DNA of 64,000 bases from Rhizobium sp. FY34 (GTDB lineage Bacteria > Pseudomonadota > Alphaproteobacteria > Rhizobiales > Rhizobiaceae), in NCBI RefSeq assembly GCF_005222845.1, contig NZ_STFZ01000014.1, forward strand, positions 62,001-126,000, written 5' to 3'. The notes under the pieces were generated by a model. The model had not been told where the DNA came from and did no database searches. It saw only the letters and a program-made list of their open reading frames with translations. Positions 40,065 through 48,110 of the stretch are shown in pieces. Position numbers and translations under genes: made by a program. How positions within the stretch are numbered: position 1 is the stretch's first letter; each line of letters starts with the position of its first letter.

Positions 40065-41432
40065 TCAGGTAAGCGGCAGTCTGACCTGCACTTCGACGCC
40101 CTCATGGCTCAGCGGTCTCGGCGACGTGACATTCACCGTCATTCCGGTGCGCTCGGCGATGGTCTTGATGATCGACAGGCCAAGGCCACTGCCACCGATC
40201 TTGGTGCTGCCGCGCTCGAACCTCAGCATCAGCCGGGCCATGGCCTCGGCTGGCAGGATCGGCCCGTCATTGGCGATGCACAGAAGTCCATCCGGCTGGA
40301 GCACCGCGTCCACAAGCCCATCCTGCGCGCCGTGCTTCAGCGCATTTTCGATCAGATTGCGAAACAGAATACCAATGGCATCCGGATCGAGCTTGGAGAG
40401 AACCGGATCCTGCGGCAGGCTGAGCACGATCCTGCCTTCGCCGGCCCGGGTGAAATCCTGGACGATCATCTGGAGTACAGGCCGCACATCGGAAGGCTCG
40501 TCACTTTGCAGGCGTCCGCCTTCGGCGCGGGCGAGCTGCATCAGCTTTTCCGACATGCGCATCAGCCGCTTCAGCGTCGTCTCGATTTCGGTTGCCCGCT
40601 GGCCGGTCAGCGCGTCCGTGGTTTCGGAGCGAATGCGCTGCGCCTGGGCGATGGCGCCGGCGACAGGCGTGCGAAGCTCATGGGCGGCATTGGCGGCAAA
40701 GGCGCGCTCGGCGTTGAAGGCAGCCTTCAACCGGTCCAGCAACTGGTTGATGCCGGCGGAAATCGGTGAAAGCTCGCTCGGCAGGCTGTTTTCGGGCAAA
40801 GGCGAAAGATCCTGGGCACCGCGCCGGGCAAGTTCTTCCCGCAGCCCCCGCACAGGCCGCAAGGATCGGCGCACCACGAAAACGATGGCCAGCAGGCTGA
40901 GCGGGATGACGACGATCAGCGGCAGCAAAAGACCGAGCAGCATCTGGCGCGACAATTTCCGGCGGTGATTGAGCGGTTCAGCCACCGCAATCGTCAGCTT
41001 ACCGTCGGCGGTTGCCCCGTAGTAGAGCTGGTGTGTTTGCGTTCGCACAAAGCCGCGCCGGACAAAGGGCGGAAAGATCGAAGCGTCCGCGCCTTTTGAG
41101 GACAGCAGAACTTTGCCGTCGCGATCGCGCAGGAGGAAGGTTACGTCTTCGCCATAGCGTGCATCGCGGCCGGTGCGTGTTTCGTCCTCACCACCCTCCT
41201 CTTCATCATCGCCGTTCTCGGTTTTGGTGCGATGGCTGTGGCCCTCCCGCAGGTCATGCCGGGCAATGGGGAGGATGCGCTGCGCCGTCGCCTTCAGCCC
41301 GTCATCGAAAACCTCTTCCATTTCGCCGCCAAGCCGATGTGCGGTGACGGCTGCTGCCGCCAGCCAGAGCAGCGTCACCGAAAGCCCAACCGCAAGCGCA
41401 AGGCGCGTCTGGAGCGAAAAACCGCTTATCAT
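40065..41432 (-). CDS. Sensor histidine kinase (QseC/OmpR type)
   Basis: A 455-residue membrane sensor. TM1 lies at about residues 12-31, a periplasmic loop at 32-163, TM2 at about 164-187, then HAMP, the phospho-acceptor H251 in A-A-H-E-L-R-T-P, and a C-terminal ATPase domain ending with G-G-S-G-L-G-L-S-I-I. The loop has a run of acidic residues (72-86) next to H-S-H, which would suit metal sensing. It overlaps the response regulator by four bases. The neighbouring divergent flavin/PepSY genes are its probable target. Confidence 0.9.
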   Translation of the reverse strand: MISGFSLQTRLALAVGLSVTLLWLAAAAVTAHRLGGEMEEVFDDGLKATAQRILPIARHDLREGHSHRTKTENGDDEEEGGEDETRTGRDARYGEDVTFLLRDRDGKVLLSSKGADASIFPPFVRRGFVRTQTHQLYYGATADGKLTIAVAEPLNHRRKLSRQMLLGLLLPLIVVIPLSLLAIVFVVRRSLRPVRGLREELARRGAQDLSPLPENSLPSELSPISAGINQLLDRLKAAFNAERAFAANAAHELRTPVAGAIAQAQRIRSETTDALTGQRATEIETTLKRLMRMSEKLMQLARAEGGRLQSDEPSDVRPVLQMIVQDFTRAGEGRIVLSLPQDPVLSKLDPDAIGILFRNLIENALKHGAQDGLVDAVLQPDGLLCIANDGPILPAEAMARLMLRFERGSTKIGGSGLGLSIIKTIAERTGMTVNVTSPRPLSHEGVEVQVRLPLT

Positions 41433-42091
41433 GCGCGCCCCAATCGATAGCCAAGCCCGCGTTCCGTCTCGATGACAGCGGCGCCGAGCTTCTTGCGCAG
41501 GCGGCTGACATGCACCTCGATCGCATTGCTATCGATGTCGGTATCGAAGGAATAGAGCCTCTCTTCCAGCTGCGCCTTGGAAAGCAGCTGGCCGGGACGC
41601 TGGAGGAAGGCCTCGAACAGCACCCATTCGCGTGCCGTCAGAATAACAGCCTTGCCGTTCAGCATGACGCTGCGTGCGGCCATATCGATGGTGAGGCCGC
41701 CAAGCGTGACCAGCGGGTTGGGATTGCCGGTATAGCGACGGGCAACCGAGCCGATACGGGCCGAAAGCTCGGCCAGATCGAAGGGTTTTATCATGTAATC
41801 GTCTGCGCCGGCATTCAGCCCTGAAATCCGGTCGGAGACCTGATCGAGCGCCGTCAGGATCATCACCGGCGTCACATCGCCGCGTCCGCGCAGGCTTTTC
41901 AGGAATGGAATGCCAAGGCCATCCGGCAGCATCAGATCAAGCAGCACCAGATCGTAGCCGGCAGCACCTAGCGCATCCCCTGCCCGATCCAGCCGCAGCA
42001 CCCAATCGACGGAATGGCCGTCTGCTGCGATCTGGTCGCGAATGGCAGCCCCCAGCGCCGTGTCGTCTTCGATCAGCAGAACCCGCATCAT
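41429..42091 (-). CDS. OmpR-family response regulator
   Basis: A 220-residue regulator. The receiver domain has D9-D10 acidic pocket residues, phospho-acceptor D52 in L-L-D-L-M-L-P-D-G and a K-P-F near residue 103. The C-terminal winged helix has V-S-R-L-R-K-K-L near the end. It is transcribed with the kinase and divergent from the PepSY gene at 42237, so it is expected to act on the intergenic region 42092-42236. Confidence 0.93.
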   Translation of the reverse strand: MMRVLLIEDDTALGAAIRDQIAADGHSVDWVLRLDRAGDALGAAGYDLVLLDLMLPDGLGIPFLKSLRGRGDVTPVMILTALDQVSDRISGLNAGADDYMIKPFDLAELSARIGSVARRYTGNPNPLVTLGGLTIDMAARSVMLNGKAVILTAREWVLFEAFLQRPGQLLSKAQLEERLYSFDTDIDSNAIEVHVSRLRKKLGAAVIETERGLGYRLGRA

Positions 42092-42236
42092 TCTCCCCCG
42101 GCATCACCGCTTGGTGCGCCCGCCAGCTTATATCATCGAGACTTCGCCTTACGGGAACCTGAAGCAATACCGCACCGTTTGTAAGGTGGCTGTCAGCTTG
42201 CGCGACGATTCATGCTCTCAACAAACCGAGGAATAG
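42092..42236. promoter_or_regulatory. Divergent promoter region of the two-component and flavin genes
   Basis: The 145-base spacer contains CCTTAC (42147-42152) and GTAAGG (42181-42186), inverted with a 28-base spacing, as the only clear symmetry. OmpR-type regulators usually bind direct repeats, so this is only a candidate. Confidence 0.4.
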
Positions 42237-42509
42237 ATGATGAAGACCGGCCTCCTGCCACGCGTTGCCCTCGCCCTCATGGCCGCCACATCCGTTCAGG
42301 CACGTGATGATTGCGACATTGCAATCAGCGAGTGGCAACCGCGCGAAGCGGTGCGCGCCATGGCAGAAGATCGCGGTTGGCGGCTGAAGCGCATCAAGAT
42401 CGAGGACGGCTGTTACGAAGTCTATGGCACAGACAAAGAGGGCCGCCGCTTCGAGGCGAAGATCGATCCCGCGACGCTTGAGGTCATCGAGATCGAGCAG
42501 CATCGCTGA
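42237..42509 (+). CDS. Small PepSY-domain exported protein
   Basis: A 90-residue protein with a signal peptide (L-P-R-V-A-L-A-L-M-A-A-T-S-V-Q-A, cut near A-R-D-D) and a single PepSY-like beta-alpha unit (G-C-Y-E-V-Y-G-T-D-K-E-G-R-R-F-E-A-K-I-D-P-A-T-L-E). PepSY proteins occur with two-component systems and membrane reductases. The start may be 42237 or the ATG at 42240. It is the first gene of a five-gene cluster that ends with apbE. Confidence 0.82.
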   Translation: MMKTGLLPRVALALMAATSVQARDDCDIAISEWQPREAVRAMAEDRGWRLKRIKIEDGCYEVYGTDKEGRRFEAKIDPATLEVIEIEQHR

Positions 42510-42571
42510 GCTTCTTTGCTGATCACCCGCAAAACCCATCAACAAGATACCCCGAACAGGAGGGCATGCGC

Positions 42572-42886
42572 ATGCGCTACCGCAAACATCTACTCGCCGC
42601 CACGGCCGGCACCGGTCTTCTCGTCGCCTTTGCCAGTCTCGCCATGCCGCTCGACACGCTGGAACCCAGTGCGGAGCACATCGTGCAACAGGTGCAGTAT
42701 GACCGGCCGGATGGCGAGCATCACCGGAAAGGCGATCACCACAAGGCCTCCCCCGAAGCTGATGACGACGACGATGATGATGATCACGGCGGCAGACATG
42801 GTGGCGCCATGCCGCCGCAGAATGCCAGTCCGCCCGCCAATGGCTTGTTTGCGCCGGGTTCCAGACCAACCGTCCAGACGAATTAA
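42572..42886 (+). CDS. Small secreted Asp/His-rich protein
   Basis: About 104 residues. An N-terminal signal-like segment (L-L-A-A-T-A-G-T-G-L-L-V-A-F-A-S-L-A) is followed by a low-complexity part with H-H-R-K-G-D-H-H, eight consecutive aspartates and a final P-rich tail. Composition suggests metal binding or a disordered linker. The ATG at 42572 is 8 bases after AGGAGG (42558-42563), better than the ATG at 42566. I do not recognise the family. Its place between PepSY and DUF2271 genes suggests a role in the same envelope process. Confidence 0.6.
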   Translation: MRYRKHLLAATAGTGLLVAFASLAMPLDTLEPSAEHIVQQVQYDRPDGEHHRKGDHHKASPEADDDDDDDDHGGRHGGAMPPQNASPPANGLFAPGSRPTVQTN

Positions 42887-42913
42887 GCTTGCCTACCCTT
42901 CAAGGAGAATGAA

Positions 42914-43384
42914 ATGAAATCCCTTCTTGCCATGCTTGCTGTCACCACGGCGCTCACCCTCCCCGGCTTGGCCAATGCAGCCCAGGTTACGTTCACCACC
43001 ACGCTCAGCAGCTATGGCGGCGATGGTGCCTATCTTGCCTATTACGTCACGGATGCGGCGGGTAAATATGCCGGAAGCTTGTGGATGGCGGGCGGCAAGA
43101 GCCGGTATTACCAGCATCTGAGCGGCTGGTACCGGGCGACTGCCGGCAATACCGCCGAGATCAACGGCATTACCGGTGCCAGCGTTGGCGCGGGTCGCTC
43201 GCTGAAGATCTCGCTCGATCTTGCCGATACGCTGTTTGATGCCGGCTATCAGTTGCATATCGATTCCGCCGTCGAAGACATGCGCGACAGCCCGAACGAG
43301 ATCGTCGTACCGCTGACCTCGGCCGGTTCCGGCCATACGGTGAAGGGCACGCGCTATATCGCTGACTTCACCTATGCCCGTTAA
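42914..43384 (+). CDS. DUF2271-domain exported protein, possible flavinylation target
   Basis: A 156-residue protein with a Sec signal peptide (cut near A-N-A-A-Q at residues 20-24) and a DUF2271 domain. Residues 84-90 (N-G-I-T-G-A-S) resemble the D-x-x-(S/T)-G-A-(S/T) motif where ApbE attaches FMN, except that N stands where D is usual. With apbE two genes downstream, it is a likely FMN carrier for extracytosolic electron transfer (inference). Confidence 0.8.
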   Translation: MKSLLAMLAVTTALTLPGLANAAQVTFTTTLSSYGGDGAYLAYYVTDAAGKYAGSLWMAGGKSRYYQHLSGWYRATAGNTAEINGITGASVGAGRSLKISLDLADTLFDAGYQLHIDSAVEDMRDSPNEIVVPLTSAGSGHTVKGTRYIADFTYAR

Positions 43385-43402
43385 GCCGGAAGGATATCTC
43401 TC

Positions 43403-45601
43403 ATGATCCGGTCGCTCCACCGCTGGTTCGGGCTGATTGCCGCTGTGCTTTTGACCATCGTCGCGTTAAGCGGCATGGCTCTGTCGGTCTTTCCGGCCGC
43501 CGAAGCACTGACCCGACCGGCCGGGCAGGCCATCAGCGTTGCGCAACTGGCCGCCCGCGTCCAGGCGGCAGAACCTTCGGTGGAGCAGATCCGGCGGTCT
43601 CCATCAGGGCGCATTACGGCCTATTTTTTTAAAGCCGACCAGCCGGCCTCTGCCGTGATCGATCCTGCAACGGGCAAGCCCGCCGGCAGCGCCGATATCT
43701 CTGCCCTGCAACGCTGGCTCACTATCTTCCACCGGTCGTTGCTGCTGGATGATGCGGGTCGTCTGGTGACCGCAGGCGGTGCGGCGATTATGCTGCTTCT
43801 GTCCCTGTCCGGCCTTTTTCTGCTGGCGCGCCGAGCCGGCGGATGGCGGTTTCTGTTGCAGCCGATGCGCGGCACGGGCAAGGGCCGGCTGCATGCCGTC
43901 GTCTCGCGGCTTGCCCTGCCCGGCCTCCTCCTCTCGTCCTTGACGGCACTCTGGATGACCGCCGGAACCTTCGGCCTTTTGCCGGAAGGGGGTGCGGCAC
44001 CTGCCTTTCCATCGCAGGTGAGCGGCCAGACAGGCGTGGTGCTATCGGCCATTCCCACGCTGCAAGCCATCCCGATGGATGACCTGCGCTCCTTGAGCTT
44101 TCCGGCATCGACCGATGCGACCGATGTCTTCACGCTGAAGACGTCCGCCGGCGAAGGCTATCTCGATCAGGGCACCGGCGCCCTTCTCGCCTGGAGCGAT
44201 GCCGGCTGGATCGACAGTGCCTCCCATCTCGTCACCATGCTGCATACAGGCCAGGGCATTGCCTGGCTTGGCCTGCTGCTGGGCTTGTCTGCCCTTGGCG
44301 TGCCGGTGCTTGGCTGGAGCGGGCTCTCCGTCTGGCTTGCGGGCCGGCGCAGGGTCAAGACGGCGTCCGTGCCCGCCGGTGATGCCGATACGATCCTGCT
44401 CGTTGCCAGCGAAGGCGGCACGACATACGGTTTCGCTGCCACGCTGCAAGCGGCACTGACTGCACAGAACCTTCGCGTGCATGTGGCACCGATGACAGGC
44501 TTTGATGCCGATCGCTGGCCGAAGGCAAAGCGGATCATCCTGTTGGCCGCCACCTATGGCGATGGCGCAGCGCCGACTGTGGCGCATGGCTTTCTCGATG
44601 CGTTCAAGCGATCTCAGGCAAAACCCGGCCTGTCGCTTGCCGTGCTCGGCTTTGGCGATCGCAGTTTCCCGGCCTTTTGCGGGTTTGCCGTAGATATCGC
44701 GCAGGTTGCGGACAAAAATGGCTGGGCACAACTCCTGCCGTTCGACACGGTAGACCGCCAGTCGCCGCAGGATTTCAGCCGCTTCGGCCACAATCTGGCG
44801 CAAGAGCTCGGCCTCGATTTCGAACTGAACCATCAAAGCGCCGCGCCGAAGACGTCGCAATTCACGCTGATCTCGCGCCGTGACTATGGTGCGGACGTGC
44901 AGGCCATGACGGCGATCCTGCGGTTCAGCCTGCCGAAGCGCTCGCTTTGCCAAAGCATTCTGGGCATGGGCATTCCGCGCTTTGAAGCCGGAGACCTGAT
45001 CGGCATCATCCCTGAGGGTTCTGACCTGCCGCGCTTTTACTCCCTGGCATCCGGCAGCTCGGACGGCTTTCTGGAAATCTGCGTGCGCCGGCAGGCCGGA
45101 GGCCTCTGTTCCAGCCAGTTGACGGGCATGGAACCTGGCGAGACGATGACAGGTTTCCTGCGCTCCAACCCAAGCTTTCGCCCGGCACAGAACGCCAACC
45201 CGGTCGTTCTGATCGGCGCTGGCACCGGTATCGGGCCGCTTGCCGGCTTTGCGCGCGCCAATAGCAAGGGGCGGCCCATGCATCTGTACTTCGGCACCCG
45301 CCACCCGGATAGCGACGCGCTCTATGCCGAGGAATTGTCGCGCTGGCAGGCTGACGGTCATCTGTCGTCCGTTTCCACCGCCTATTCGCGCACAGCCACG
45401 CCCGCCTATGTGCAGGATATCCTGCGCAAGGATGGCGCACGTCTCTGCAAGCTGATGGCCGAAGGCGGGCAGATCCTCGTCTGCGGTGGCAGGGAGATGG
45501 CCGCCGGCGTTGCGGCGGCACTCGCCGATTGCCTGGCTCCGCAGGGCTTCAGCCTTGCCACATTGAAGGCGGAGGGCCGTTATGCGGAAGATGTGTACTG
45601 A
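43403..45601 (+). CDS. PepSY-TM / flavodoxin / FNR fusion reductase
   Basis: A 732-residue membrane flavoprotein. It has an N-terminal PepSY-associated TM region with about four helices (near 8-30, 120-142, 170-194, 285-316), then a flavodoxin-like domain (about 328-470, I-L-L-V-A-S-E-G-G-T-T-Y-G-F), then an FAD/NAD(P)H ferredoxin-reductase-like domain (about 490-732) with R-F-Y-S-L-A-S-G and G-A-G-T-G-I-G-P-L. The layout is that of PepSY/sulfite-reductase flavoprotein fusions linked to iron reduction. It can move electrons from NAD(P)H across the membrane, plausibly to the DUF2271 protein. Confidence 0.88.
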   Translation: MIRSLHRWFGLIAAVLLTIVALSGMALSVFPAAEALTRPAGQAISVAQLAARVQAAEPSVEQIRRSPSGRITAYFFKADQPASAVIDPATGKPAGSADISALQRWLTIFHRSLLLDDAGRLVTAGGAAIMLLLSLSGLFLLARRAGGWRFLLQPMRGTGKGRLHAVVSRLALPGLLLSSLTALWMTAGTFGLLPEGGAAPAFPSQVSGQTGVVLSAIPTLQAIPMDDLRSLSFPASTDATDVFTLKTSAGEGYLDQGTGALLAWSDAGWIDSASHLVTMLHTGQGIAWLGLLLGLSALGVPVLGWSGLSVWLAGRRRVKTASVPAGDADTILLVASEGGTTYGFAATLQAALTAQNLRVHVAPMTGFDADRWPKAKRIILLAATYGDGAAPTVAHGFLDAFKRSQAKPGLSLAVLGFGDRSFPAFCGFAVDIAQVADKNGWAQLLPFDTVDRQSPQDFSRFGHNLAQELGLDFELNHQSAAPKTSQFTLISRRDYGADVQAMTAILRFSLPKRSLCQSILGMGIPRFEAGDLIGIIPEGSDLPRFYSLASGSSDGFLEICVRRQAGGLCSSQLTGMEPGETMTGFLRSNPSFRPAQNANPVVLIGAGTGIGPLAGFARANSKGRPMHLYFGTRHPDSDALYAEELSRWQADGHLSSVSTAYSRTATPAYVQDILRKDGARLCKLMAEGGQILVCGGREMAAGVAAALADCLAPQGFSLATLKAEGRYAEDVY

Positions 45602-46523
45602 CAAGACGCGCCATGCGCTGAATGGTCCGACCATGGGCACGCGCTGGTCGGCGCTGTTTCACGCTGACGCGGGCTTCGATGTCATGCCCGTTGAGACGGC
45701 GATGGCGAAGGCGGTGACCGAGGTGGATGCGCAGATGTCCAGCTGGAAACCGGACAGCGATCTCAACCGCCTGAATGACGCAAGGCCGGGCGATTGGATC
45801 GCGCTGCCGGATCGGTTGCTCGGTGTTCTCGCTGCAGGGCTTGCCATTGGAGCGGCGTCAAATGGCGCCTTTGATATCGGCATGGGCGATGCGGTTGCCG
45901 CCTGGGGTTTTGGTCCTGAAACGGCCGATGAGGCACGCATCAGAGCCGCGCGCCTTGCAAGCCGCAGGCCCGCCCATAATGTTTTGGAAATCGATCAGGC
46001 GAGTGGACGGGCTCGAAAACATGCCGATCTGCGCCTTGATCTCAACGGTATCGCCAAGGGCTATGGCGTTGACCGGCTGACGGACGTGGCGCGCGCGCAC
46101 GGCATCACTGCCGGCCTGTTTGCCATCGATGGCGAATTGCGGGCGCTGGGCACCCAACCGGATGGACGGGCCTGGACCGTTGCCGTCGAGGTTCCGGCAT
46201 TCGATGCGCGCGCGCCGCATTCCATGATCGAACTTTGCGATGCAGCTGTTGCCACCTCGGGCGACTACCGCCACTGGATCGATGTTGGCGGCCGTCGGTT
46301 GTCGCATACGATGGACCCGCGCCTTGGAATGCCGCTTGCCCAGTCGCCAGCCTCCGTCACCGTCATTGCCCGCGATTGCATGAGTGCTGACGCATGGGCA
46401 ACGGCAATGATGGTTCTGGGCGAGGCGCGTGGCCTGCCGCTTGCCGAAAAACTCGGCCTATCGGTGCTGTTCCTTTATCATCAGCCGGAAAGGCGGGGCG
46501 GATGTGGTGTATTCGCCGCCTGA
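45582..46523 (+). CDS. apbE: FAD:protein FMN transferase
   Basis: A 313-residue ApbE. It has the opening G-P-T-M-G-T-R-W, D-I-G-M-G-D-A-V-A-A-W-G-F-G, the FAD-binding D-L-N-G-I-A-K-G-Y-G-V-D, and H-T-M-D-P-R-L-G near the C-terminus. ApbE moves FMN from FAD onto a Ser/Thr of target proteins. Unlike most ApbE proteins it shows no lipoprotein or Sec signal peptide. It overlaps the reductase gene by 20 bases. The local target is probably the DUF2271 protein. Confidence 0.9.
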   Translation: MRKMCTDKTRHALNGPTMGTRWSALFHADAGFDVMPVETAMAKAVTEVDAQMSSWKPDSDLNRLNDARPGDWIALPDRLLGVLAAGLAIGAASNGAFDIGMGDAVAAWGFGPETADEARIRAARLASRRPAHNVLEIDQASGRARKHADLRLDLNGIAKGYGVDRLTDVARAHGITAGLFAIDGELRALGTQPDGRAWTVAVEVPAFDARAPHSMIELCDAAVATSGDYRHWIDVGGRRLSHTMDPRLGMPLAQSPASVTVIARDCMSADAWATAMMVLGEARGLPLAEKLGLSVLFLYHQPERRGGCGVFAA

Positions 46524-46544: not shown

Positions 46545-48110
46545 TCACTGATCTGCCATCGCATTATAGCGATAGCTTCGGTATCCGGCAGCGAACCCCG
46601 TCTGGCGCAGGCTTGCCTCCAGATAGGGCATGAGGCTTTCCACCATCTGGCGCGCCGTGCTTTCGTCTGGCGTATCCGGCCTTGAGAGAGTGCTTGCGAT
46701 CTCCGCCATCACCGCGTCGCGGTCGATTGTCGTGACGCGCCCGCCATCGACCACCAGCCTTCCGCCGACGAAGACCTGCTCGATGGCATGGCGCCCGCCG
46801 CGATGCAGCAGCGCTTCCACCGGCGGCGTGCGCGGATCGATGGCCGGACGCGCCAGCCGGTCCTTGTCCATCAGCACGATATCGGCCTGAAAGCCGGGCT
46901 CCAGCCGCCCGGTAAAGCCGCCGAAGCCGACGGAGGCAGCGCCATGTTCTGTTGCCATTTGTAGCACGGCACCGGCATCCGGCCTTTCGTTGAACAGCCT
47001 GGTTTCCCGGTGCAACGCCCAGACGAGCTTCATTTCCAGCGTCATGTCGCGGTCATCGGCAATGTTTGACTGGTCGATGCCGAGAGCCACGGGAATGCCA
47101 CGCCTTCGCATCTCGTTGACCGGCGCAATGCCGCTGCCGAGCCGCAGGCCCGAGGAGGCATTGTGGCAGATCATGCAGCCGCAGGAGGCGATGATGTCGA
47201 GATCCTCGCGGCTCATCCAGTTGCCATGTCCGAGCGTCACATTGGCATCCAGGCATTGCAGCTTTTGCAAATGCTGTACGGCGCTTCGGCCATAGGTCTG
47301 CCGGGAATAGGCCGCCTGCCGTTCGGTTTCCAGCAGATGCATGTGGACATTGCCGCCTTCGGCCTTGGCTGTTTCAAAGATTGTCTGCAAGGCCTCGTCG
47401 CTGCACCAGTGGAGGTTTGCGGGCGCAAGGTTCATGCGGATATGCTGCGGATTGTCGGGCAGGAATTTTGCGCGCATGTCCCGGTAAAATTCCATCAGCC
47501 GGGGCACCGGCACGGCACCACTTGCCAGTTGCGGCGCAAGCCAGTCGCGAAGCGGCGCGGGCAGACGGCCCAGCATTTCGGCATCCGGCTCATAGGAGAG
47601 GATATTGCGGTCGCGGATCATGAAGCAATAGCCCATGCGCATGCCGATCTCGCCATAGGCGCCGATCGTATCCTCTGCCATCTGCATCCAGCTTTCCGGC
47701 GCGCCGGCAAAGCCGCTATGGATATGCTGTACGGTGGTTGTGCCACTTTCCAGCATTTCGATGGCCGAATAGAGCGTATCCAGCCGCTGGTTGATGCGGC
47801 GCATGGCGCGAAACTGCGGCAGCCACAGTTCCAGCGGCGCAAAGGCAATGCCCTGCATCAGCGGCGTGACGCCGAAATGATGGTGCGCATTGACAAGCCC
47901 CGGCATGGCGATCATCCGGCGCGAGCCAAAGTGCTGCAGATGATCATTGCCGTAGCCAACGGCCTCCATCGGGCCGATCTGCGCAATCATGCCCTTTTCG
48001 ACGCGGATGCCGACATCATGGCGCATGCCCATCACGCCATTCGGGCCGATGCCGGTCAGAACGGTGCCGGCTTCGATGATGCAATCTGCAACGGGAATGG
48101 GTTTTGTCAT
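46545..48110 (-). CDS. Amidohydrolase-superfamily deaminase (COG0402-like)
   Basis: A 521-residue TIM-barrel metal-dependent hydrolase. The metal ligands H76-x-H78 lie in N-A-H-H-H-F-G. Later histidines lie in H-M-H-L-L-E-T-E and G-H-G-N-W-M-S, and the metal-binding aspartate in G-I-D-Q-S-N. The L-R-L-G-S-G-I-A-P-V motif is shared with guanine/8-oxoguanine, S-adenosylhomocysteine, triazine and pterin deaminases. It is the last gene of a nine-gene operon and overlaps its upstream neighbour by four bases. The substrate is probably an amino-substituted N-heterocycle (inference). Confidence 0.86.
   Translation of the reverse strand: MTKPIPVADCIIEAGTVLTGIGPNGVMGMRHDVGIRVEKGMIAQIGPMEAVGYGNDHLQHFGSRRMIAMPGLVNAHHHFGVTPLMQGIAFAPLELWLPQFRAMRRINQRLDTLYSAIEMLESGTTTVQHIHSGFAGAPESWMQMAEDTIGAYGEIGMRMGYCFMIRDRNILSYEPDAEMLGRLPAPLRDWLAPQLASGAVPVPRLMEFYRDMRAKFLPDNPQHIRMNLAPANLHWCSDEALQTIFETAKAEGGNVHMHLLETERQAAYSRQTYGRSAVQHLQKLQCLDANVTLGHGNWMSREDLDIIASCGCMICHNASSGLRLGSGIAPVNEMRRRGIPVALGIDQSNIADDRDMTLEMKLVWALHRETRLFNERPDAGAVLQMATEHGAASVGFGGFTGRLEPGFQADIVLMDKDRLARPAIDPRTPPVEALLHRGGRHAIEQVFVGGRLVVDGGRVTTIDRDAVMAEIASTLSRPDTPDESTARQMVESLMPYLEASLRQTGFAAGYRSYRYNAMADQ

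Follow-up and report, generated by a model that had tools for sequence, protein, structure and literature searches.

How does an exported protein gain its flavin from a transferase that shows no export signal, and what would a bacterium reduce with such a protein? Both questions are raised by a seven-gene block at positions 40065-46523 of a 64,000-nucleotide stretch of the Rhizobium sp. FY34 genome (contig NZ_STFZ01000014.1; we refer to the whole stretch as the window). The block joins an ApbE flavin mononucleotide (FMN) transferase, a secreted DUF2271 protein, and a PepSY-type membrane reductase, a core of an already known kind, to a divergent histidine kinase and response regulator. This cassette is best read as a metal-responsive reductase of the envelope. 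Stated more fully, it is probably a horizontally mobile form of the PepSY-like flavinylation system that is under two-component control and acts at the cell envelope on a redox-active metal; iron as that metal is likely but unproven. On this reading, one flavinylation system gains a dedicated switch and a defined operator, so that its signal becomes testable by a reporter. It would also connect electron transfer by extracytosolic flavin with the metal transporters of conjugative plasmids, in hosts that range from rhizobia and roseobacters to Klebsiella and Citrobacter.

An earlier note on this DNA had proposed a gene order, and the open reading frames together with Pfam place all seven genes as it described: kinase and regulator on the minus strand, followed on the plus strand by PepSY_2, an Asp/His-rich protein, DUF2271, a fusion of PepSY_TM, flavodoxin, and NAD(P)H (nicotinamide adenine dinucleotide (phosphate)) reductase domains, and ApbE. 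The features are as follows (FAD, flavin adenine dinucleotide; bp, base pairs).

40065-41432, minus strand: histidine kinase, QseC/PmrB-like (Pfam HAMP, HisKA, HATPase_c), its periplasmic domain with a variable acidic insertion
41429-42091, minus strand: OmpR-type response regulator, PmrA/QseB-like (Pfam Response_reg, Trans_reg_C)
42148-42163, no strand: putative operator, left half, CTTAC-N6-CTGAA, two 5-bp half-sites with an 11-bp period
42181-42196, no strand: putative operator, right half, GTAAG-N6-GTCAG, mirror image of the left half, 17 bp away
42237-42509, plus strand: small secreted PepSY_2 protein with two cysteines (26, 59) (PF13670, 93.3 bits)
42566-42886, plus strand: secreted Asp/His-rich protein with a conserved C-terminal tail, no Pfam match
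42914-43384, plus strand: secreted DUF2271 protein, predicted FMN carrier (PF10029, 113.6 bits; TGAS motif; signal-like N-terminus)
43172-43174, plus strand: Thr87 codon, predicted FMN attachment site in DUF2271 (invariant motif; homologous Thr in A. ursilacus)
43403-45601, plus strand: membrane reductase, PepSY_TM cytochrome fused to flavodoxin and FAD/NAD(P)H domains (Pfam; His6, His110, His164, His281)
45582-46523, plus strand: ApbE FMN transferase, no visible signal peptide (PF02424, 253.4 bits)

Most genes around the block are not common to its relatives, so the block itself is the conserved unit. Over the reductase, the closest named relatives belong to the Rhizobiaceae (R. daejeonense 81%, Rhizobium sp. 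CG5 79%), and the laboratory strain R. johnstonii 3841 has the cassette too. Among the 13 untruncated genome loci of named relatives (16 minus L012, L017, and L021), kinase and regulator homologues diverge from the operon in all except L020, and ten hold all seven parts, including L009 and L022, in which PepSY_2 and the tail protein share one frame. A wider set of 32 loci, picked by DUF2271 or reductase similarity and excluding L079 (a second copy of L008) and L077 (a contig end), gives the kinase and regulator in 29, PepSY_2 in 28, the tail protein (by model) in 21, a DUF2271 protein with the flavinylation motif [ST]GA[ST] in 32, the membrane reductase in 31, and ApbE in 30. The synteny is seen in genome and plasmid loci alike, and DUF2271 is rare within the genus (2 of 35 other genomes). 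One locus, L069, shows the kinase/regulator, PepSY_2, a ferric-reductase-like flavocytochrome, and a motif-bearing DUF2271, with no PepSY_TM reductase or ApbE within the 13.5 kilobases read. In the window, ApbE is directly followed on the opposite strand by an amidohydrolase gene (46545-48110), part of a minus-strand run seemingly unrelated to the cassette.

Phylogeny ties the regulators to the flavin carrier. A survey of 398 Pseudomonadota genomes gave 67 places above the DUF2271 cut-off besides the window's own, all of which were taken into a tree of 80 rows (the 67, the window, and 12 named loci; the Caulobacter gene is not among them). The window falls in a clade of 26 rows with a support of 100/100, and kinase and regulator, counted as present when exceeding 200 bits to profiles built from this class, adjoin 24 of these rows vs none of the 54 outside. 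The two rows lacking them belong to one genus. Weaker matches (61 to 132 bits) occur in five of the outside rows, with only L134 matching both profiles, and we take these to be unrelated systems. The DUF2271 alignment has few columns, and the inner forks of the tree are therefore weak.

The DUF2271 protein carries the motif NGITGAS, in which T87-G88-A89-S90 is invariant in 13 sequences. In Amantichitinum ursilacus, ApbE attaches FMN to a DUF2271 homologue, for which the homologous Thr is needed (PMC8238504). That ApbE flavinylates DUF2271, as the earlier note supposed, gains support from a motif common to all 32 relatives, and covalent FMN is predicted here as well. Among DUF2271 places without the regulators (L063, L067, L082-L135), only 26 of 56 have the [ST]GA[ST] motif, so some of these may not be flavin carriers or may use another motif. 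We claim no fold for the protein: its structure model has a mean pLDDT (predicted local distance difference test) of 70, with the flavinylation loop 67-89 below 50, the best PDB sequence match has an E of 0.88, and Foldseek gave no match with E <=0.001.

This brings us to the topology question. Export signals were judged by hydropathy, which is a crude test; by this measure DUF2271 has a signal-like N-terminus, and its leader is without a twin arginine. ApbE, the only ApbE match in this genome, starts 17 residues ahead of a conserved MGT core, and its highest 11-residue hydropathy within the first 35 residues is 0.76, vs 2.15-2.3 for the three secreted proteins. Across 31 loci of this class, every candidate start of ApbE stays at or below 0.7 ahead of the core (in seven loci, over a small number of residues), and rescoring the first 35 residues in 30 relatives gave a highest value of 1.67, inside the conserved core. 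The trait, which the earlier note does not mention, is not confined to this class: of 11 DUF2271 loci outside it, one has an ApbE that reaches 2.8, and the others stay at or below 1.7 or have no start. According to a review on ApbE, secreted ApbEs serve secreted targets and cytosolic ones serve the cytosolic fumarate reductase (PMC12052999). A sole, leaderless ApbE next to a DUF2271 protein with a leader suggests that the flavin is attached before export, which is the simplest reading of these sequences. An extended version holds that ApbE flavinylates the DUF2271 preprotein in the cytosol before Sec export, that the unit is a plasmid-borne metal-response cassette, and that kinase, PepSY_2, and acidic tail protein report the metal reduced by the flavin; taken together, these statements are quite possible, if short of probable.

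How would electrons reach this flavin? Residues 319-732 of the reductase resemble diflavin reductases in both structure and sequence, e.g., nitric-oxide synthase reductase and cytochrome P450 reductase, with Z scores of 27.6-33.1 among the VIA-align matches listed within this range. VIA-align barely covered the membrane half of the model; its link to the siderophore reductase FoxB (PDB 7abw) rests on sequence (whole-sequence E 8.3e-07). His 6, 110, 164, and 281 are invariant in 15 sequences and are candidate haem ligands, the first, second, and last of which face histidines in FoxB, although the stretch with His 281 is weak when taken alone. FoxB itself has two haem sites with two conserved histidines each (PMC11334425). 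Diflavin domains, invariant histidines, and the FoxB match argue for the transmembrane electron path that had been anticipated for the PepSY-type reductase. The cysteine positions show no CxxC spacing for a c-type haem (CxxCH) in any of the seven proteins.

Control of the reductase by the kinase and regulator is supported by a conserved operator. Between the regulator and PepSY_2 genes lies a mirror-image pair of 11-bp direct repeats (CTKAC-N6-CTGAA, 17 bp, TTCAG-N6-GTCAG). This double operator, with a gap of 16-18 bp, is found in 26 of 29 loci (it is missing in L023, L068, and L069) and in none of 20 shuffled sets. It recurs in 12 of 19 plasmid loci read later, among them three on one plasmid backbone (L191, L197, and L198), one with the same cassette (L184), and three similar to loci of the first set (L182, L183, and L193). 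Further copies point more directly at the reductase genes: a second copy ends 51, 49, and 15 bp 5' of the DUF2271 frame in L073, L074, and L076, respectively, copies end 53 and 46 bp 5' of the frame preceding DUF2271 in L072 and L192, and L070 also has a second copy (its downstream frame is not listed). In L188 and L192, the sole copy precedes the reductase genes instead of lying between the divergent promoters. Such copies tie the regulator to the reductase genes, with binding as the presumed mode. In the window's genome, the single-site pattern has three matches, two of them being this promoter, and a reversed control pattern has two. The response regulator is 64-95% identical in 12 syntenic named loci. 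Its NCBIfam matches are below cut-off, as are the best ones of the kinase (QseC and heavy-metal histidine kinase). The acidic stretch of the kinase was considered as a core metal sensor and rejected as a general one, being a variable-length insertion that is missing from many relatives.

Two small secreted proteins may complete the sensor. The PepSY_2 protein, a likely partner of the kinase, has a DGCY motif in all 28 relatives with a PepSY_2 match. In the Asp/His-rich protein, the middle is variable, and the best-conserved part is the C-terminal tail, with PPxNGLFxxGxxPxVQxN or a variant at its end. In L022, L065, L074, and others, one protein holds the acidic part and tail behind a PepSY_2 domain, and both small-protein genes of L066 are PepSY_2-like; we read the tail protein as a PepSY_2 relative or partner. 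Fusions of PepSY_2 to an acidic linker and a PPxNGLF-type tail or variant were noted in L022, L065, L074, L023, and L189. An assignment of the small Asp/His-rich protein as a CopL-like metal protein was not used (NCBIfam 15 bits vs a cut-off of 40).

The link to metals comes from the neighbours. Flank clusters judged informative were the VIT family, P-type ATPases, Ferric_reduct, and cytochrome b561; the rest resembled antisense frames or genes without a pattern of recurrence. VIT-family genes adjoin 9 of 33 loci of this class, with Pfam VIT1 confirmed on three, and the same query, which a distant VIT could escape, found none beside 54 other DUF2271 loci or beside 17 loci of kinase kin. A heavy-metal P-type ATPase stands beside VIT in L008, L021, L062, and L078, with NCBIfam support for two. 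Its motif is TPC in L008 and TPC or, in L199, SPC in the plasmid copies; we take the TPC type of the L008 copy to be one linked to nickel and iron pumps.

Plasmids carry this association further. The reductase is present in 97 plasmid records, 70 of them predicted conjugative and 38 from the single genus Pseudosulfitobacter. We read 19 plasmid loci, hand-picked for spread, of which 18 are annotated: VIT is found in 12 of these 18 and a heavy-metal or cation P-type ATPase in nine, one of unsure type. Kinase, regulator, and motif are present in all 19; ApbE was not found in three mutually close-kin stretches. The window's own contig has a RepC match, and this copy is therefore probably on a repABC replicon. 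Plasmids of Klebsiella pneumoniae, Citrobacter freundii, and Marinobacter (L186, L187, and L190) hold a related cassette with an AraC regulator, DUF6448, and a VIT1/CCC1 transporter, with no ApbE in the stretch read.

Joined together, these parts allow the following route to be proposed. Together with PepSY_2 and a possible metal binder, the acidic tail protein, the kinase would detect some condition of the periplasm, and the regulator would bind the mirror-image sites between the two gene sets, turning on the regulator and reductase genes. Electrons of NAD(P)H would pass to FAD and then FMN in the cytosolic domains and on to two b haems in the membrane, as suggested by the domains, the conserved histidines, and the FoxB match. 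The haems would reduce the FMN that ApbE places on Thr87 of DUF2271 (the motif is present here; the chemistry is that of the homologue), and DUF2271 would in turn reduce a periplasmic metal ion, probably Fe(III). Judging by gene neighbourhood, the metal may then be moved, in many relatives, by transporters of the VIT family or by P-type ATPases.

Several points weigh against this proposal. Neither a VIT gene nor a metal ATPase gene turned up near the window copy, and the sole VIT1 match in the window's genome covers only part of the family (84 of 214 positions). Because both VIT transporters and P-type ATPases handle a range of metals, such neighbours do not point to iron in particular. Of the earlier suggestion of a metal- or redox-responsive reductase, possibly for iron, the metal link is supported by neighbours in relatives, and iron as substrate or signal is plausible but unproven. 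Several of the 19 plasmid loci are close kin (one group of four, one of three). The same 29 loci in which the operator was counted had served to define it, and it is absent from seven of the 19 plasmid loci, namely L185, L186, L187, L189, L190, L199, and L200, with hosts in Cupriavidus (two), Paraburkholderia, Shinella, Klebsiella, Citrobacter, and Marinobacter. A paralogous kinase locus in the own genome, L164, has a double site with a wider gap, and the operator is hence not proven private to this operon. Finally, we found no experiment on any member of this clade in the literature.

The alternative that survives best, possible if on balance rather unlikely, is an assimilatory ferric reductase feeding Fe(II) importers, comparable to the Fur-controlled PepSY/DUF2271/DUF4198 locus of Caulobacter under another regulator. 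Fur regulates that locus (CCNA_03155-03159), and mutants in it are less fit in ethylenediaminetetraacetic acid (PMC12004947); VIT1 and Fur-controlled PepSY-like clusters have moreover been read as serving iron reduction and assimilation (PMC8238504). However, Pfam finds no DUF4198 gene, the mark of the Fur-type iron locus, in the window's operon, the regulator pair is a dedicated one, and the plasmid neighbours include annotated heavy-metal or cadmium P-type ATPases. Such ATPases are usually efflux pumps.

Unlikely, too, is a valve for envelope redox or oxidative stress without metal specificity, a view that draws on the kin of the kinase. Around further kinase matches we collected 17 loci without this reductase, 11 of which (L165, L166, L168, L169, L170, L171, L173, L174, L175, L176, and L177) have a cytochrome b561 gene adjacent to the regulatory pair, and in all of these except L171 a PepSY_2 gene was called as well. 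Pfam confirmed b561 in all seven examined (L165, L166, L168, L169, L171, L174, and L175), the remainder being assigned by N-terminal similarity. PepSY_2 without b561 is found in L164 and L167, and the module is not visible in L172, L178, L179, and L180; the double site recurs in L165, L166, L168, L171, and L175. Inside the reductase class, a Ferric_reduct protein is present in L062, L068, and L069 and cytochrome b561 in L065 and L073. These partners suggest a sensor module wired to different membrane electron carriers, of which the flavin one is the variant described here. A literature search, covering mostly open-access papers, gave no paper combining "PepSY", "cytochrome b561", and "two-component". 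The absence of a VIT match from all 17 loci and the presence of such sensors in SHP/DHC/cytochrome b operons (PMC2909971) fit a redox valve, which is in turn countered by the frequent VIT and P-type ATPase neighbours in the window's clade. As a separate observation, L164 (contig C9, 203000-217000) has a kinase 36% identical to that of the window, with a regulator, a divergent PepSY_2 gene, and no reductase, and it adjoins genes resembling the kdp operon.

Improbable, lastly, is a regulator pair that senses membrane integrity in the manner of DbfQRS with the reductase as a secondary target, because the reductase linkage is nearly exclusive within the DUF2271 clade and several loci have operator copies immediately 5' of the reductase genes, even though DbfQ, a PepSY protein, targets the DbfS sensor domain, the system responds to membrane integrity, and a Vibrio DbfQRS reporter is unchanged by Fe(II) or Fe(III) supplements (PMC12714742).

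The metal-responsive envelope reductase can finally be set beside known systems. One is the mmf cassette of IncP-1beta plasmids (PMC4914505), which likewise combines a plasmid-borne PepSY gene with a two-component pair, on a plasmid that affects growth with iron and vanadium; it has other membrane proteins (DUF347), and the portion of that paper available to us names no flavinylation genes. SHP/DHC/cytochrome b operons with SK1/Orf1 or QseC-like SK2 sensors (PMC2909971) hold a kinase and regulator, sometimes a small periplasmic accessory protein, a membrane b cytochrome, and a periplasmic carrier, as here, whereas the window's carrier is flavin-based and its seven proteins lack a c-type haem motif. 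The DbfQRS and BqsRS-PA2658 modules (PMC12714742) also place a small secreted PepSY protein next to their kinase and regulator, and that of the window lies within four genes of its pair; in Pseudomonas aeruginosa, PA2658 is the PepSY protein and a predicted binding partner of BqsS, which is cited there as iron-responsive. The output linked to the window's module, in contrast, is a transmembrane reductase cassette. With FoxB, the window reductase has the PepSY_TM domain in common, and three of its four invariant histidines align to FoxB histidines, but it is extended by flavodoxin and FAD/NAD(P)H domains and has a distinct protein as its predicted FMN carrier.

The nearest relative in content is the PepSY-like flavinylation system (PMC8238504), with which the window has ApbE, a DUF2271 protein with [ST]GA[ST], and a PepSY_TM (PF03929) protein with an NAD-binding domain in common; VIT1 occurs in that system occasionally. 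As in that system, the PepSY_TM gene clusters with ApbE and DUF2271, and at least one product has a signal peptide (DUF2271, by hydropathy). The main text of that paper never uses the terms "histidine kinase" or "response regulator", "two-component" appears in it once, within a reference, and among the literature matches listed, which cover few subscription papers, we found no description of a two-component-controlled DUF2271 cluster. Compared with the PepSY-like system as described there, the window variant belongs to a separate DUF2271 clade, has no DUF4198 and an ApbE without a visible signal peptide, is frequently carried on plasmids, and adds a dedicated two-component system with a conserved operator, a secreted PepSY_2 protein, an acidic tail protein, and a flavodoxin domain.

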